Assembly: GCA_904419955.1 (NCBI GenBank)
Contig: CAJFTO010000008.1
Coordinates: forward strand, 1-64,000
Reading direction: 5' to 3'
Length of the DNA: 64,000 nucleotides
Source: Candidatus Roslinia caecavium
GTDB taxonomy: Bacteria > Bacillota > Clostridia > Monoglobales > Monoglobaceae
Shown: positions 2,584-63,212 of the stretch, one piece after another
Position numbering within the stretch: the stretch's first letter is position 1
Layout of the letters: every line of letters begins with the position of its first letter
Notes under the pieces: model-generated
Seen by the model: only the letters and a program-made list of their open reading frames with translations
Told to the model about the DNA's origin: nothing
Database searches by the model: none
Program-made: the position numbers and the translations under genes

Positions 2584-3372
2584 ATGTCCGGAAATAATAA
2601 AATAGACGGAGGACGAGAATTTGACTGGAACAAAACGTCCGAGGATTATGCAAAGTACAGGGATATTTATCCGAACGAGTTTTACAATATTCTTTTGAGC
2701 AGGGGTCTGTGCGCAGACGGGCGGCACGTTTTAGACGTCGGTACGGGAACAGGAGTACTGCCGAGAGCGCTCTATAGGTTCGGCGCGGATTTTACCGGTA
2801 TCGATATATCAGAAAATCAGATAGAACAGGCTAAGAGGCTCGCCGCTGAAAACGGTATGGATATTGATTTTAAACGCGCTTCGGCCGAGAACACGGGTTT
2901 CGCCGACGCTTCGTTCGACGTTATTACCGCTTGTCAATGCTTCTTTTACTTCGATCACGACAGATTCGCCCGAGAGGCCGATAGGATGCTTAAAGACGGC
3001 GGAAAACTTGCGGTCCTATATATGGCGTGGCTCCCGTTTGAGGATAGGATAGCGGGTATGAGCGAGGAGCTGATATTAAAATATAATCCGTCGTGGAGCG
3101 GATGCGGCGAGACGCGCCGAGATATATCCATTCCCGAAGTTTATAACAGATATTTCGATTTGGAGGATACGGAAATACTCGACCTGCGTTTGCCATTTAC
3201 AAGAGAGAGTTGGAACGGACGTATAAAGGCGTGCCGCGGAACCGGAGCTTCGCTGAGCGCGGAGGAGCTTAAGGCGTTTGAGAGGGAACATTTAAAGGAG
3301 CTTGAAGATAACGCCCCCGAGGAATTTGAGATCCTTCATTACGCCGCCGCGGCGATATTGAGGAAAAAGTAA
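2584..3372 (+). CDS. Class I SAM-dependent methyltransferase
   Basis: 262 residues. Motif I is seen as VLDVGTGTGVLPRAL (about residues 50-64), the acidic end of beta-2 as GIDISENQ, and motif IV/post-I as FDVITACQCFFYF. This is a Rossmann-fold methyltransferase of the Methyltransf_11 type (UbiE-like); the substrate cannot be told. The ATG at 2584 has an AGGGGAG ribosome site. It follows the zinc-ribbon membrane gene closely and ends before a strong hairpin at 3409 shared with the convergent tre operon. Confidence 0.85.
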   Translation: MSGNNKIDGGREFDWNKTSEDYAKYRDIYPNEFYNILLSRGLCADGRHVLDVGTGTGVLPRALYRFGADFTGIDISENQIEQAKRLAAENGMDIDFKRASAENTGFADASFDVITACQCFFYFDHDRFAREADRMLKDGGKLAVLYMAWLPFEDRIAGMSEELILKYNPSWSGCGETRRDISIPEVYNRYFDLEDTEILDLRLPFTRESWNGRIKACRGTGASLSAEELKAFEREHLKELEDNAPEEFEILHYAAAAILRKK

Positions 3373-3408
3373 ATGCGGCAGAGTTAAAAATTGGCAGGCA
3401 AAATTATA

Positions 3409-3439
3409 CGGCGCGCGGACTGATATTATCCGCGCGCCG
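3409..3439. terminator. Bidirectional terminator between methyltransferase and treA
   Basis: An 11-bp perfect GC-rich stem (3409-3419 with 3429-3439, CGGCGCGCGGA) with a 9-nt loop lies between two convergent genes. The T tract is only moderate on either side (CTTTA on plus, TATAATTTT on minus). Confidence 0.7.
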
Positions 3440-3478
3440 CTTTAGCCGAGGCATGAACGCTGACAAAAACTATTATTG

Positions 3479-5098
3479 CTACGCTTTGTAATACGCTCTG
3501 ACTTCGTACGGAGCGAGGCGAGCTCCGGGGGCTTCGTAGTTGCATAAAAGCAGCTCGCCGCCCGAGTCTATGTCGTAGTCCAATTCGTCCGAGGAGAGAT
3601 TGCATATAACGTAGAGTTCTTCGTTTTCCAAAGCGCGCTTGTATACAAACAGCCGTTCGTCAGGCTCTTCCACCGGGATAAATTCGCCGTCGCTTATGAC
3701 AGAATATTCCTTTCTCAGAGCGATCAGCTTCTTATAAAAATCCAAGATCGAATCTGGCGAGGCGCTTTCGAGTTCGGCGTTTATCGATCTATAGTTTTTC
3801 GCCGGGGATATCCAGGGCTCGCCGGTCGTGAATCCGGCGTTTTTGCCTCCGTTCCACTGCACCGGAGTTCTTCCGTTGTCTCTTGATTTGGCGGCGAGTA
3901 TCTTTAGCGCTTCGCTCTCGGATACCCCGTTTGAAAGCATTATCTTATAATAATTAAGGCTCTCCACGTCTCTGTACTCGTCGATCGAGGTGAAACCTGC
4001 GTTGGTCATTCCGAATTCCTCGCCCTGGAAAATGTAAGGAGTTCCGCGCATCAGATGTATGACGGCGGCGAGAGCTTTGGCCGATTCCGCTCTGTATTTA
4101 ACGTCGTCTCCGAACCGGCTGACCGCTCTCGGCTGATCGTGGTTGCACCAGAATACCGCGTTCCAACCTCCGCCGTCCTGCATACCGACCTGCCATGATA
4201 CAAGCAGATCTTTTAGCTTTTTAAAATCCGGCTTCATAAGCGACCATTTGTTTCCGTTTGAATAATCGACTTTCAGGTGGTGGAAACTGAAACACATGGA
4301 CAGTTCTTTCTCGGCCGGGTTGGAATATCTGATACAATTATCTATAGAGGTAGAGGACATCTCTCCGACCGTCAGCATATCGGAAATGCCGCTATCTTGC
4401 ACAAGCTCTTTTAAAAATTCATGTATCCTGGGGCCGTCCGTATAGAACCTGCGCCCGTCGCCCTCGTAGTCGTCTTCGAACTTATCCGGTTTTGAGACCA
4501 GATTTATAACGTCGAATCTAAAGCCTTTTATCCCTTTATTTTTCCAAAACCTAAGGACGTCTTTAAGTTCCGCGCGAACTTCAGGATTGTTCCAGTTTAG
4601 ATCCGCTTGAGTTACGTCGAATAGATGGAGGTACCATTTTTTGAGTTTAGGAACGTATTCCCATGCGCTGCCGCCAAACTTGGATTCCCAATTGGTGGGC
4701 GGGGAGTCGGGTTTACCGTCTATGAAGTAATAGTAATCCATATACTTTTTGTCGCCTGTCAGCGCTTTTTGGAACCACTCGTGTTCGGTAGAGGTGTGGT
4801 TAAACACCATATCGAGCATCAAGCCTATTCCGCGTTTGTCGGCTTCGGATATGAGCTTTTCCAGATCCTGCATGGAGCCGAAGACCGGGTCTATATTTCT
4901 GTAATCCGAAACGTCGTAGCCGTTATCGTTTAAAGGCGAGCGGAAGAAGGGGGTTATCCAGATATAATCGACGCCAATCTCTTTTATATAATCGAGCTTT
5001 TCGATTATACCTCCGAGATCGCCGATACCGTCGCCGTTGGAATCTTTAAATGATTTGATATATATTTGATATACGCATGATTTCGAGAAGTTAACCAT
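3479..5098 (-). CDS. treA: Trehalose-6-phosphate hydrolase (phospho-alpha-1,1-glucosidase, GH13)
   Basis: 539 residues, the usual length for TreA/TreC. It splits imported trehalose-6-phosphate into glucose and glucose-6-phosphate in the cytosol. The GH13 barrel is intact: YQIYIKSFKDSNGDGIGDLGG at the start, catalytic nucleophile Asp196 in GFRFDVIN, acid/base Glu246 in TVGEMSST and transition-state Asp321 in CNHDQPR. The segment around FSFHHLKVDYSNGNKW and the GGGWNAVFWCNHDQPR stretch are closer to phospho-trehalases than to oligo-1,6-glucosidases. It follows treP on the same strand after a 247-nt gap, which fits an operon. The ATG at 5098 has an AAAGGAAA ribosome site. A separate oligo-1,6-glucosidase role is the main alternative, but the PTS neighbour argues for trehalose. 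Confidence 0.9.
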   Translation of the reverse strand: MVNFSKSCVYQIYIKSFKDSNGDGIGDLGGIIEKLDYIKEIGVDYIWITPFFRSPLNDNGYDVSDYRNIDPVFGSMQDLEKLISEADKRGIGLMLDMVFNHTSTEHEWFQKALTGDKKYMDYYYFIDGKPDSPPTNWESKFGGSAWEYVPKLKKWYLHLFDVTQADLNWNNPEVRAELKDVLRFWKNKGIKGFRFDVINLVSKPDKFEDDYEGDGRRFYTDGPRIHEFLKELVQDSGISDMLTVGEMSSTSIDNCIRYSNPAEKELSMCFSFHHLKVDYSNGNKWSLMKPDFKKLKDLLVSWQVGMQDGGGWNAVFWCNHDQPRAVSRFGDDVKYRAESAKALAAVIHLMRGTPYIFQGEEFGMTNAGFTSIDEYRDVESLNYYKIMLSNGVSESEALKILAAKSRDNGRTPVQWNGGKNAGFTTGEPWISPAKNYRSINAELESASPDSILDFYKKLIALRKEYSVISDGEFIPVEEPDERLFVYKRALENEELYVICNLSSDELDYDIDSGGELLLCNYEAPGARLAPYEVRAYYKA

Positions 5099-55969: not shown

Positions 55970-55980
55970 TTTTACATAGA

Positions 55981-56014
55981 GCCGGTATTGCCCAAAGAGC
56001 AATATCGGTTTTGT
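55981..56014 (+). terminator. Terminator after the CNNM/CorC gene
   Basis: CCGGTATTGC (55982-55991) pairs with GCAATATCGG (55999-56008, one G-U), then TTTTG. Confidence 0.75.
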
Positions 56015-56031
56015 TATTGTTACACAAAAGC

Positions 56032-56059
56032 TTGACTTTGAGGTTTTTTTGGGTATAAT
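56032..56059 (+). promoter_or_regulatory. Promoter of the GTPase-NYN fusion gene
   Basis: TTGACT (56032-56037) and TATAAT (56054-56059), spacer 16 nt. The leader of about 180 nt holds a nested stem-loop and a short ORF. Confidence 0.65.
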
Positions 56060-56142: not shown

Positions 56143-56247
56143 TAATACCGCATTGCGTTAAAGATCGGCGGGATATGATATTAATATATCGAAAAACGAT
56201 AGGATATAACGATAATGCGCTAAAGATTGGAAGATAAGAAGGATAAT

Positions 56248-58893
56248 ATGAAGAGATTGGCGATTGGGATATTAGCCCATGTTGATTCAGGAAAGACAAC
56301 ACTCTCCGAGGGGCTGCTTTATTCGGCGGGGGAGATAAGGAAGATCGGGCGCGTCGATCACGGCGACGCTTTTTTGGATACGCACGAGATAGAGAGAGAC
56401 CGCGGGATCACGATATTCTCCAAGCAGGCTATACTCAGATTCAACGAGTCTGAGTTTACTCTGCTCGATACGCCGGGACACGTTGATTTTTCGACCGAGA
56501 TGGAGCGCACGCTGAACGCGATCGACTACGCGATACTCGTCGTAAGCGGTTCGGACGGCGTTCAAAGTCACACCGAGACGTTGTGGAAGCTGCTCAAGAG
56601 ATACGGCGTTCCGGTATTTTTGTTTGTGAATAAGATGGATCTTGCCGGCGCGGAGCGCGGTCGTCTTCTTGACGAGCTTAAGAATAGGCTGGATAAAAGA
56701 TGCGTGGACTTCAGCGCCGGCGCGGATACCGGCGAATTTATGGAGAACGTCGCAGTCTGCGACGATTCGATGATGGAGGAGTTCTTCGATACCGGAAAGG
56801 TCGGAGACGAGGCGATAAGAAAGGCGATCTCTGAGAGAAAGTTATTTCCGTGCTATTTCGGTTCCGCGCTGAAAAACGACGGAGTGAAGGAATTTCTCGA
56901 AGGGATAGACAGATATACCGCTCCGGCGGTATTTTACGAAGAGTTTGCCGCTAAGGTATTTAAGATCAGCGAGGACGAGCAGGGGAATAGGCTCACGCAC
57001 TTAAAAATAACCGGCGGCGTTTTAAACGTCAAAGAAACGCTTACCGGTTCGGGCGCCGATAACGAAGAATGGGAAGAGAAGGTAAACCAGATAAGGGTCT
57101 ATTCGGGAGCTAAATATAAAACTATCGAACAGGCGCCCGCCGGAACGGTCTGCGCCGTTACCGGACTTACCAAGACGTTTCCGGGCGAGGGACTCGGAGC
57201 CGAGAGCGACTGCGAAAGCCCCGCGCTCGAGCCGGTTCTGACCTATAGCGTAGAACTGCCGGACGGGTGCGACGCGCATACCGCGTTAATAAATCTTAAG
57301 AAGCTCGAGTCGGAGGATCCGCAGCTCCACGTTATGTGGAACGAACAGCTCCAGGAAATACATCTTCAGCTGATGGGCGAGGTCCAGCTCGAGGTGCTGA
57401 AGCGGATAATTCTCGAGCGGTTCGGTATGGACGTTAAGTTCGGCAGAGGGAATATCGCCTATAAGGAGACTATAGCGAATACGGTCGAGGGGGTGGGTCA
57501 CTACGAGCCGCTTCGGCATTACGCGGAGGTGCATCTTATAATAAAGCCGGGAAAGCGCGGGAGCGGGATACATTCCTCGACCGCGTGCAGCGAGGACGAA
57601 TTGAGCCGAAACTGGCAGAGGCTTATCCTCACTCATTTGGAGGAGAAGACGCACGTCGGCGTACTGACCGGTTCGCCGCTGACCGACGTCAAGATAATAC
57701 TCGCCTCGGGGCGCGCTCATCAGAAGCATACCGAGGGCGGAGATTTTCGCCAGGCCACATACAGGGCGGTAAGGCAGGGACTCAGATCGGCCGAAAGCGT
57801 CCTGCTTGAACCGTGGTATGAATTCAGGCTCGAAGTTCCTTCCGAAACCGTCGGCAGGGCGATGAACGACATACAACAGATGTGCGGCTCGTTTTCCGCG
57901 CCGGAGCAAAACGGCGAGACGACCGTTATAAGAGGAACGGCGCCGGTCGCGACCATGCGCGACTATCACAGCGAGGTGATAGGCTACACCAGGGGAAAGG
58001 GTCGGCTGAGCTGTACTCTAAAGGGCTACGATAAATGTCATAACCCGGACGAGGTGATCGAGGAGATCGGATACAGCGCGGACAACGATCTGGATAACCC
58101 CGCCGATTCGGTGTTCTGTTCTCACGGCGCCGGGTTTGCAGTCAAGTGGGACAAGGTTCCGGAATATATGCATCTTGAGAGCGTTTTAAAGGAGGAGCCC
58201 GACGAGCCCGCAGCGCGGAGCGTTACCAGACAGAGGATATCCGAGTATATAGACAGAGTGGCGGAGGACAAAGAACTGATAAAGATTTTCGAGCGAACCT
58301 ACGGACCGATCCAAAGACGTACCGAATCCGCGATGTATACGCCGAGGACGTATACGAAGAATACAAGCAAGCCGTATAAACCGAAGCCCGCGCCGCAGGG
58401 ACCCGAGTATCTTTTGGTAGACGGTTACAACATAATTTTCGCATGGGACGAACTTAAAGCGCTCGCCGAGGAGAGTTTAGAGATGGCGAGAGAGGAGCTT
58501 ATCGAGATACTCTGCAATTACCAAGGAGTAAGACAGTGCGAGGTGATACTGGTCTTCGACGCGTATAAGGTAAAAAACAATCCCGGCGAGGTCGAAAAGG
58601 TGAATAACATAAACGTGGTCTACACAAAAGAAGCGGAGACCGCGGACATGTATATAGAAAAAGTGACGCATAAACTGAGCAAAAAACACCGGGTCAGGGT
58701 CGCGACTTCGGACGGCCTCGAGCAGCTTATAATACTCGGAAACGGAGCGTTCAGACTGTCGGCCGACGGGTTTAAGAAAGAGGTCGAGCAGGTCGAAAGC
58801 GCGGTGCGCGACTTTTTGAAGACGCGGAACGAGACCGAATCGGTCCAAAAGATCGGCGATATGGTCGACGCGCCCGATATATTCGGCGACTGA
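56248..58893 (+). CDS. TetM/EF-G-like ribosomal GTPase fused to a Rae1/YacP-type NYN nuclease domain
   Basis: 881 residues. Residues about 1-650 are a translational GTPase of the TetM/TetO branch: P-loop AHVDSGKTTLSEGLLYSAG, G2 DRGITIFSK, G3 DTPGHVDF, G4 NKMD, then EF-G-like domains II-V (RGNIAYKETI, GTAPVATMRDY). Residues about 722-860 are a PIN-like NYN domain of the Rae1/YacP type, beginning LLVDGYNIIFAWDELKA, with acidic residues Asp725, Asp771 (VFDAYKV), Asp800 (ETADMYIE) and Asp822 (ATSDGLEQL) where Rae1 has its catalytic ones. Rae1 of Bacillus cleaves mRNA in the ribosomal A site, the place where TetM-like factors dock, so the fusion suggests a factor that binds ribosomes and cuts mRNA there, or senses stalls. 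Whether it protects against tetracycline is unknown. ATG 56248 follows AGAAGGATA. It stands alone behind its own promoter. Confidence 0.85.
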   Translation: MKRLAIGILAHVDSGKTTLSEGLLYSAGEIRKIGRVDHGDAFLDTHEIERDRGITIFSKQAILRFNESEFTLLDTPGHVDFSTEMERTLNAIDYAILVVSGSDGVQSHTETLWKLLKRYGVPVFLFVNKMDLAGAERGRLLDELKNRLDKRCVDFSAGADTGEFMENVAVCDDSMMEEFFDTGKVGDEAIRKAISERKLFPCYFGSALKNDGVKEFLEGIDRYTAPAVFYEEFAAKVFKISEDEQGNRLTHLKITGGVLNVKETLTGSGADNEEWEEKVNQIRVYSGAKYKTIEQAPAGTVCAVTGLTKTFPGEGLGAESDCESPALEPVLTYSVELPDGCDAHTALINLKKLESEDPQLHVMWNEQLQEIHLQLMGEVQLEVLKRIILERFGMDVKFGRGNIAYKETIANTVEGVGHYEPLRHYAEVHLIIKPGKRGSGIHSSTACSEDELSRNWQRLILTHLEEKTHVGVLTGSPLTDVKIILASGRAHQKHTEGGDFRQATYRAVRQGLRSAESVLLEPWYEFRLEVPSETVGRAMNDIQQMCGSFSAPEQNGETTVIRGTAPVATMRDYHSEVIGYTRGKGRLSCTLKGYDKCHNPDEVIEEIGYSADNDLDNPADSVFCSHGAGFAVKWDKVPEYMHLESVLKEEPDEPAARSVTRQRISEYIDRVAEDKELIKIFERTYGPIQRRTESAMYTPRTYTKNTSKPYKPKPAPQGPEYLLVDGYNIIFAWDELKALAEESLEMAREELIEILCNYQGVRQCEVILVFDAYKVKNNPGEVEKVNNINVVYTKEAETADMYIEKVTHKLSKKHRVRVATSDGLEQLIILGNGAFRLSADGFKKEVEQVESAVRDFLKTRNETESVQKIGDMVDAPDIFGD
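58411..58840 (+). other. NYN (Rae1/YacP-like) domain of the fusion protein
   Basis: Region coding for residues about 722-864. A proline- and lysine-rich linker (about 700-720, NTSKPYKPKPAPQGP) separates it from the GTPase. All four expected acidic positions are kept, so the nuclease is predicted to be active. Confidence 0.8.
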
Positions 58894-62063: not shown

Positions 62064-62098
62064 TTAATAAAAAAATATTTATGAATGGAAGTGATAAC

Positions 62099-63212
62099 GT
62101 GATAGCTTTTGACGAGTATAAGCTCGGCTTGGAGGGCATGAAAAAAGATATTACAGAACTGAGGGATTCACTTTAACTTAGCTCAAGTCGAGAAAGAGCT
62201 AAAAGAGCTTGAAGAAAAAACGATGCAGCCCGATTTCTATAACGATATGGAGAGCGCGGGAAAGATACTGCAAAAAATAAAAGGGCTCAAGGACAAGAGA
62301 GACAGATTCAATGCGCTCGTGACGACTCACGAGGATTTGACCACTTTGGTCGCCCTGGCGATCGAGGAGGAGGACGAGAGCGTGCTGGACGAGGTCAAGC
62401 AGGGGTATAAAGAACTGTCGGAGAACCTTGAAAATATGAAGCTCGAGACGCTGCTCTCAGGCAAGTACGACGCAAACAACGCGATCGTCACGCTACACGC
62501 GGGCGCCGGCGGCACAGAGGCGCAGGACTGGTGCCAGATGCTGTTTAGGATGTACACGATGTGGGCGGAGCGCAGAGGGTTCAAGCACGAGGTTATCGAT
62601 TTCTTAGACGGCGAGGAAGCCGGGATAAAGAGCATCACCTTTATGATAGAGGGACTTAACGCCTACGGATATTTAAAGTCGGAGAAGGGCGTTCACAGGC
62701 TTGTCAGGATATCGCCGTTCGATTCGGCGGCGCGGCGGCATACGTCCTTTGCGTCCTGCGAGGTCATGCCCGAGATAGACGATACTATCGACGTGGAGAT
62801 AAACCCGGAGGACCTGAAGATCGACACCTACAGGGCGAGCGGCGCGGGCGGTCAGCATATCAACAAGACCGAGTCGGCGATAAGGATCACGCATATCCCG
62901 ACCGGGGTGGTGGTGACCTGCCAGAACGAGCGCAGTCAGCACAAGAATAAGGATATGGCGATGAAGATGCTAAAGTCGAAGCTGATAGAGATAGCGGAGC
63001 GGGAGCAGAAAGAGAAGATCGAGGACTTAAAGGGCGTTCAGACCGAAATTGGCTGGGGAAACCAGATAAGGTCGTACGTGTTCCAGCCTTACAGAATGGT
63101 CAAGGATCACAGAACCAACTACGAGACCGGTAATGTAGACGCGGTGATGGACGGCGGTTTGGACGGCTTTATCAACGCTTATTTGATAGCGAAATCGAGG
63201 GGCGAATTATAG
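62099..63212 (+). CDS. prfB: Peptide chain release factor 2 with programmed +1 frameshift
   Basis: 370 residues after the shift. It releases peptides at UGA and UAA. The GTG at 62099 (GGAAGTGA before it) opens 25 codons to TAA at 62174-62176; a +1 slip at the preceding CTT continues in the main frame from AAC (62175). The main frame has the RF2 SPF anticodon tripeptide (VRISPFDSAARRHTSF) and the GGQ catalytic motif in SGAGGQHINKTESAIR. The joined start reads MIAFDEYKLGLEGMKKDITELRDSL-NLAQ, normal for RF2. AGGG lies 5 nt before CTT as the stimulatory element. Confidence 0.93.
62162..62177 (+). promoter_or_regulatory. prfB frameshift site, CTT TAA C
   Basis: The slippery codon is CTT at 62171-62173, the in-frame stop TAA at 62174-62176 followed by C, and AGGG at 62162-62165 as the Shine-Dalgarno-like stimulator. 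The usual site is CTT TGA C with AGGGGG 3 nt upstream. Confidence 0.88.

Follow-up and report, generated by a model that had tools for sequence, protein, structure and literature searches.

EF-G-type proteins, including TetM, enter the ribosomal A site with domain IV. In TetM, residue Pro509, located in the SPV motif at the tip of loop III, overlaps tetracycline (PMC7456112). Another A-site protein is Rae1 of Bacillus (B.) subtilis, an endoribonuclease that cuts mRNA at this site (PMC12320835; PMC6613710). The Tet proteins of ten Clostridiales species were reported to have acquired a YacP-like NYN domain, and RNase-based antibiotic resistance was proposed for these Tet-NYN fusions (Atkinson 2015, PMC4342817).

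The stretch of DNA analyzed here, referred to as the window, comprises 64,000 nucleotides from Candidatus Roslinia caecavium. It harbors a gene encoding an EF2-family GTPase followed by a YacP-like NYN domain, i.e., a fusion that fits those described in Clostridiales in 2015; because the architecture was reported then, its novelty is modest. As the initial annotation had proposed, the fusion is real: one intact frame encodes five EF-G-type domains and then NYN_YacP (Pfam). The gene, the signals that precede it and the parts of its product are located as follows:

55976-56014, + strand: terminator-like hairpin, which belongs to the upstream CBS/CorC-type gene
56032-56059, + strand: promoter-like site TTGACT-16-TATAAT, 11/12, a consensus match only, 3' of the hairpin at 55976-56014
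56189-56216, + strand: weaker promoter-like site, 9/12, a consensus match only, 59 nt 5' of the ATG
56237-56243, + strand: ribosome-binding site AGAAGGA, read from the sequence, four bases 5' of the ATG
56248-58893, + strand: fusion gene, 881 aa, a single open frame with no internal stops
56257-56919, + strand: G domain, residues 4-224 (Pfam GTP_EFTU), with all G motifs and the catalytic His78
56944-57180, + strand: domain II, residues 233-311 (Pfam EF-G_D2)
57229-57444, + strand: domain III, residues 328-399 (Pfam EFG_III)
57448-57792, + strand: domain IV, residues 401-515 (Pfam EFG_IV), the best-conserved section of the chain
57709-57750, + strand: domain IV tip loop III, GRAHQKHTEGGDFR, residues 488-501, which replaces the Tet YSPVST tip
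57799-58044, + strand: domain V, residues 518-599 (Pfam EFG_C)
58045-58182, + strand: subfamily-specific extension DSVFCSHGAGFxVKW, residues 600-645, missing in EF-G and Tet
58183-58404, + strand: linker, residues 646-719, of low model confidence, with one conserved segment DKEL..IFE+TYGP (674-687)
58405-58836, + strand: NYN_YacP/Rae1 nuclease domain, residues 720-863, with acids D725, D771, D800 and D822
58837-58890, + strand: acidic, partly disordered C-terminus, which stands where free Rae1 has a basic tail

The NYN_YacP domain was matched at residues 722-863 with E=4.5e-50 and 170 bits (cut-off 24.6, Pfam). The full set of GTPase motifs and the four acidic positions listed in the initial annotation were both confirmed: D13, K16, T17, D74, H78, N128 and D131 do not vary among the 77 fusions aligned, and neither do the correctly named D725, D771, D800 and D822, nor N728, E797 and E804. 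A chance or decayed open reading frame is ruled out by the domain scores and these invariant catalytic sets. A scan of named genomes returned at least 595 related stretches, the best 80 of which lie in other genomes and are 57-66% identical to the query over nearly its full length. These 80 represent Oscillospiraceae, Lachnospiraceae, Butyricicoccaceae and other families, and include Ruminococcus callidus, Blautia, Flavonifractor and Faecalibacterium; the fusion of Monoglobus pectinilyticus is 65.5% identical to the window protein. The architecture is thus conserved as one protein across Clostridia, which rules out an assembly join and upholds the original view that the fusion did not arise by chance.

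An AlphaFold2 model obtained from 42 sequences has a mean pLDDT of 82, falling below 50 in linker segments 649-660 and 689-715 and at the extreme C-terminus. The best solved-structure matches of the full model are EF-G, with PDB 9GHA, EF-G on the ribosome, at the top (E=6.8e-55). For the NYN domain modelled alone, the only strong solved matches are the B. subtilis Rae1 structures 5MQ9 and 5MQ8 (TM 0.71-0.79, E 4e-13 to 1e-11; next match E=4e-3). The model aligns to 5MQ9 with TM 0.77 (E=4.1e-13), and the same structure is found by sequence at E=3.8e-25. The catalytic likeness anticipated for this half is therefore seen in the structure prediction as well, and, judged from sequence and model, the NYN half is a Rae1-type nuclease with a complete catalytic set. 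The linker is rich in proline and lysine in the window copy, as initially described, but its sequence varies among fusions except for the DKEL..IFE+TYGP segment. This helix (window 58267-58308) is found in fusions and lies past the end of the standalone GTPases read; it is a possible docking element.

The description of the GTPase half as TetM-like did not hold. The best NCBIfam model of the window protein is indeed tet_protect, but the score is 420 bits against a curated cut-off of 775. The window genome's own EF-G scores 388 bits with the same model, five fused relatives and a standalone relative from Ligilactobacillus (L.) salivarius score 374-437, and TetO and TetB(P) reach 853 and 959, respectively. 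The tip of domain IV reads YYSPVSTPADFR in TetO and TetW and FFSPASTPADFR in TetB(P). In the window protein it reads AHQKHTEGGDFR, with AHQKHTEGG in place of the SPV-bearing Tet loop III, i.e., the tetracycline-displacing loop is missing; the H-x-K-H-T-E-G-G-D-F-R tip is kept in the fusions compared. Loop I of domain IV is GHYEPLRHYAEVH in the window protein as opposed to NPFWASVGL in Tet. The DSVFCSHGAGF extension is common to fusions and standalone relatives and is missing from EF-G and Tet. In the GTPase tree, a branch supported at 91/87 sets the fused GTPases apart, the L. salivarius standalone adjoins the fused clade and other standalones lie beyond; the TetO/TetB(P) pair falls outside at 100/99, its exact position being unsure because only two Tet rows were included and the Tet and EF-G branches are long. 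Taken together, these sequence comparisons do not support a TetM/TetO-type assignment in the sense tested, and suggest a distinct branch of the EF-G family. For the standalone members of this subfamily, no function was found in the literature searched. One of them, on the L. salivarius UCC118 megaplasmid pMP118 (2986-4920 of locus L115), adjoins rpsN and is labelled TetM/TetW/TetO/TetS family despite a score of 374 against 775 bits.

The YacP domain was found in 191 of 293 genomes sampled from the class, and only four of these 191 carry two copies. Among 150 of the matches listed in this sample, 85 frames are at least 600 aa, 60 are at most 230 aa and five fall between. The window genome has one YacP-domain copy, the fusion itself, and a search of this genome for free Rae1 found none. 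In the family of the window genome, 22 genomes have the domain; the frame is fusion-sized in all but one of them, where it measures 351 aa and may be cut short; no free rae1 was seen in these 22, and in the other sampled genomes of the family the YacP domain was not found. The absence of free rae1, raised as a question in the initial annotation, thus applies to the window genome and, as far as seen, to the domain-bearing genomes sampled from its family. There are 59 genomes in which Rae1 occurs only in its free form; an intact standalone GTPase of the subfamily was found in 13 of them and remnants in two more. The GTPase and Rae1 are thus separate in some genomes and fused in others, but at these counts the pairing is not obligate. 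In the family to which the window genome belongs, one genome (G068) encodes a standalone subfamily GTPase of 655 aa, and the YacP domain was not found there. Another genome (G209) encodes a standalone GTPase and a separate NYN protein of 173-190 aa (L019/L167), which clusters with the fused NYNs and not with canonical Rae1; either the fusion was split in this genome, or the protein is a relic of the donor that preceded the fusion.

In the NYN tree, fused and free Rae1 sequences are split at 100/100, with the free-standing L019 of G209 the one exception, placed with the fused. The two groups also differ at the C-terminus. A tail of the form L-E-K-x-R-R/K is found in 23 of 25 distinct free Rae1 sequences compared with one of 89 fused NYNs, where the Fisher comparison of these counts ignores relatedness and tail loss may represent few events. 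The tail is absent in the window protein, and 55 of the 89 fused copies simply end early. In B. subtilis, R166P in the C-terminal tail is a loss-of-function allele of rae1 (PMC6613710), and from this one missense mutant comes the putative role of the tail in ribosome docking. The sequences look as if the tail had decayed once the nuclease was tethered, and delivery of the nuclease by the GTPase draws its main new argument from this pattern. In three loci read, the free Rae1 gene has mrnC and rlmB upstream and sigH downstream (names assigned by likeness to the B. subtilis gene order); next to rlmB of the window genome, none of mrnC, rae1 and sigH is found.

The median upstream gap of the fusion genes is 140 bp, and among 62-64 loci with enough flank no conserved neighbours were found, so the fusion protein looks self-contained. 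In the window the gap is 278 bp, and the 11/12 promoter-like site 3' of the terminator-like hairpin agrees with the promoter proposed earlier. The structured leader postulated with it was not substantiated: the fold of the window leader has z -1.8 relative to shuffles, no Rfam match was obtained, and the feature is not conserved. Several relatives have a promoter-like site just 56-61 nt before the ATG, a spacing shared by the weaker window site, which leaves no long leader in those relatives. Terminator-like hairpins are commoner before fusions (33%) than before other genes of the same loci (13%; Fisher p 0.004), and leader fold strength shows no clear difference between the two (p 0.07). In several of nine leaders read the hairpin precedes the promoter-like site and therefore looks like the terminator of the upstream gene; a structured or attenuating leader was rejected as a conserved feature on these grounds. 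At four loci (L032, L060, L073 and L080) the distance from the end of such a hairpin to the start codon is only 24-39 nt; with no room for a promoter in between, these are possible attenuators.

Further downstream in the window (62081-63212, + strand), prfB, which encodes RF2, seems to have retained the programmed +1 frameshift. The first frame ends MKKDITELRDSL* and the shifted frame runs on as NLAQVEKELKELEEKTMQPDFY. Its in-frame stop is TAA (CTT TAA C, 62171-62177), not the usual TGA. UAA is also read by RF1, so autoregulation of RF2 may be weaker here.

We give an even chance to the proposal, drawn from sequence, that the protein is a ribosome-directed housekeeping factor, whose GTPase half recruits an mRNA endonuclease to stalled ribosomes, at their A site. 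This retains the part of the initial annotation that placed the nuclease on stalled ribosomes, which is the best inference; its extension to drug-bound ribosomes, like the Tet-type assignment, is not supported. The protein would be a standing, chromosomally encoded translation factor of many Clostridia, whose EF-G-like GTPase would bind a ribosome on its A-site side when that site is vacant or blocked, and take over from the putative docking tail of free Rae1. Binding and hydrolysis of GTP would time the entry and exit of domain IV. A single A site has no room for domain IV and the NYN domain together, so the model requires a hand-over: after withdrawal of the GTPase, the flexibly tethered NYN domain would enter the vacated A site and cut the mRNA, or alternatively act on the A-site mRNA of a collided ribosome next to it. 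The cut would leave a ribosome that trans-translation can rescue; the window genome encodes EF-G, a second EF-G and tmRNA, and with tmRNA present the cut mRNAs could be rescued in this way. Ribosome binding, A-site action, timing by GTP and the mRNA substrate are all elements that we infer. A GTP-timed A-site nuclease, i.e., a GTPase gating its own mRNA endonuclease, widespread in gut Clostridia, having replaced free Rae1 and being miscalled tetracycline resistance, is a more tentative formulation, to which we assign somewhat less than an even chance.

That the GTPase and Rae1 are not obligate partners, and that G068 has the GTPase without Rae1, weighs against the proposal of a GTPase-delivered A-site nuclease. 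The 13 genomes in which the two are encoded separately would be expected if the fusion merely held two activities together, the nuclease working as Rae1 does and the GTPase having a separate job. Such an arrangement is nevertheless unlikely, considering the conserved linker segment, the loss of the Rae1 tail in the fusion and the rarity of genomes with two domain copies. The substrate could also be different: the GTPase might dock on ribosomes or subunits while the NYN domain cuts rRNA, in rRNA or tRNA processing or in ribosome degradation. The role first suggested for NYN domains was in rRNA/tRNA maturation (cited in PMC4342817), and free rae1 adjoins the rRNA genes rlmB and mrnC in the loci read. 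The sole characterised YacP protein, however, cuts mRNA in the A site, and many genomes of the class lack the YacP domain, which would be odd for a core rRNA step, making a role of this kind rather improbable.

We consider it quite improbable that the fusion is a tetracycline ribosomal-protection protein with an acquired RNase, as implied in 2015 and by database labels. The five domains are shared, tet_protect is the best model, and plasmid records list relatives under the TetM/TetW/TetO/TetS family label, but the score lies near that of EF-G and far below the cut-off, loop III lacks the SPV residues, of which Pro509 overlaps tetracycline, the Tet proteins branch outside, and the gene is ordinary across whole families. 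A nearly full fusion was found in two plasmid records, on replicons of 518 kb and 252 kb predicted to be non-mobilizable; with this prediction and without conserved neighbours at the loci surveyed, a mobile resistance gene was rejected. Two phage records with the fusion are not taken as phage carriage because they are unannotated faecal contigs, the one opened being marked UNVERIFIED. A nuclease on a ribosome-binding chassis could also halt translation under phage or drug attack. We regard such a defence or stress-shutdown factor as highly improbable, since PADLOC gave no match, no conserved defence or mobile neighbours were found and the gene is widespread in whole families.

To our knowledge, Rae1 is among very few bacterial nucleases that cut mRNA in the ribosomal A site. 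With Rae1 tethered to a ribosome-type GTPase and its own tail lost, recruitment becomes directly testable with one protein. The gene is common in gut Firmicutes, and some records label it or its relatives as tetracycline resistance; should the housekeeping reading be true, resistome counts may include a housekeeping gene. To the architecture known since 2015, the present analysis adds the non-Tet GTPase, the single fused clade, the absence of free Rae1 in the window genome and the loss of the tail.

In comparison with known systems, the window protein shares with TetM/TetO the five-domain EF-G-like GTPase (27-31% identity), but lacks the SPVST tip, carries the DSVFCSHGAGF extension and a fused nuclease, and scores far below the family cut-off. 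Like the 2015 fusions, it combines an EF-G/Tet-type GTPase with a YacP-like NYN domain in Clostridiales; those fusions were placed in the Tet subfamily, whereas the GTPase examined here lies outside the Tet proteins tested and is without the Tet tip. Standalone GTPases of the same subfamily, found in L. salivarius (pMP118, LSL_RS10690), Paenibacillus cellulosilyticus and other genomes of the class, have the same type of tip loop and C-terminal extension (the L. salivarius copy is 51% identical) but no nuclease domain, and often carry the TetM/TetW/TetO/TetS label. Rae1/YacP of B. subtilis (5MQ8, 5MQ9) shares the NYN fold, the four catalytic acids and about 40% identity, but it stands alone, is about 170 aa long and ends in a basic C-terminal tail. 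In the clostridial loci read, free Rae1 sits with rlmB and sigH, whereas the window NYN domain is fused, has lost the tail and is encoded elsewhere.
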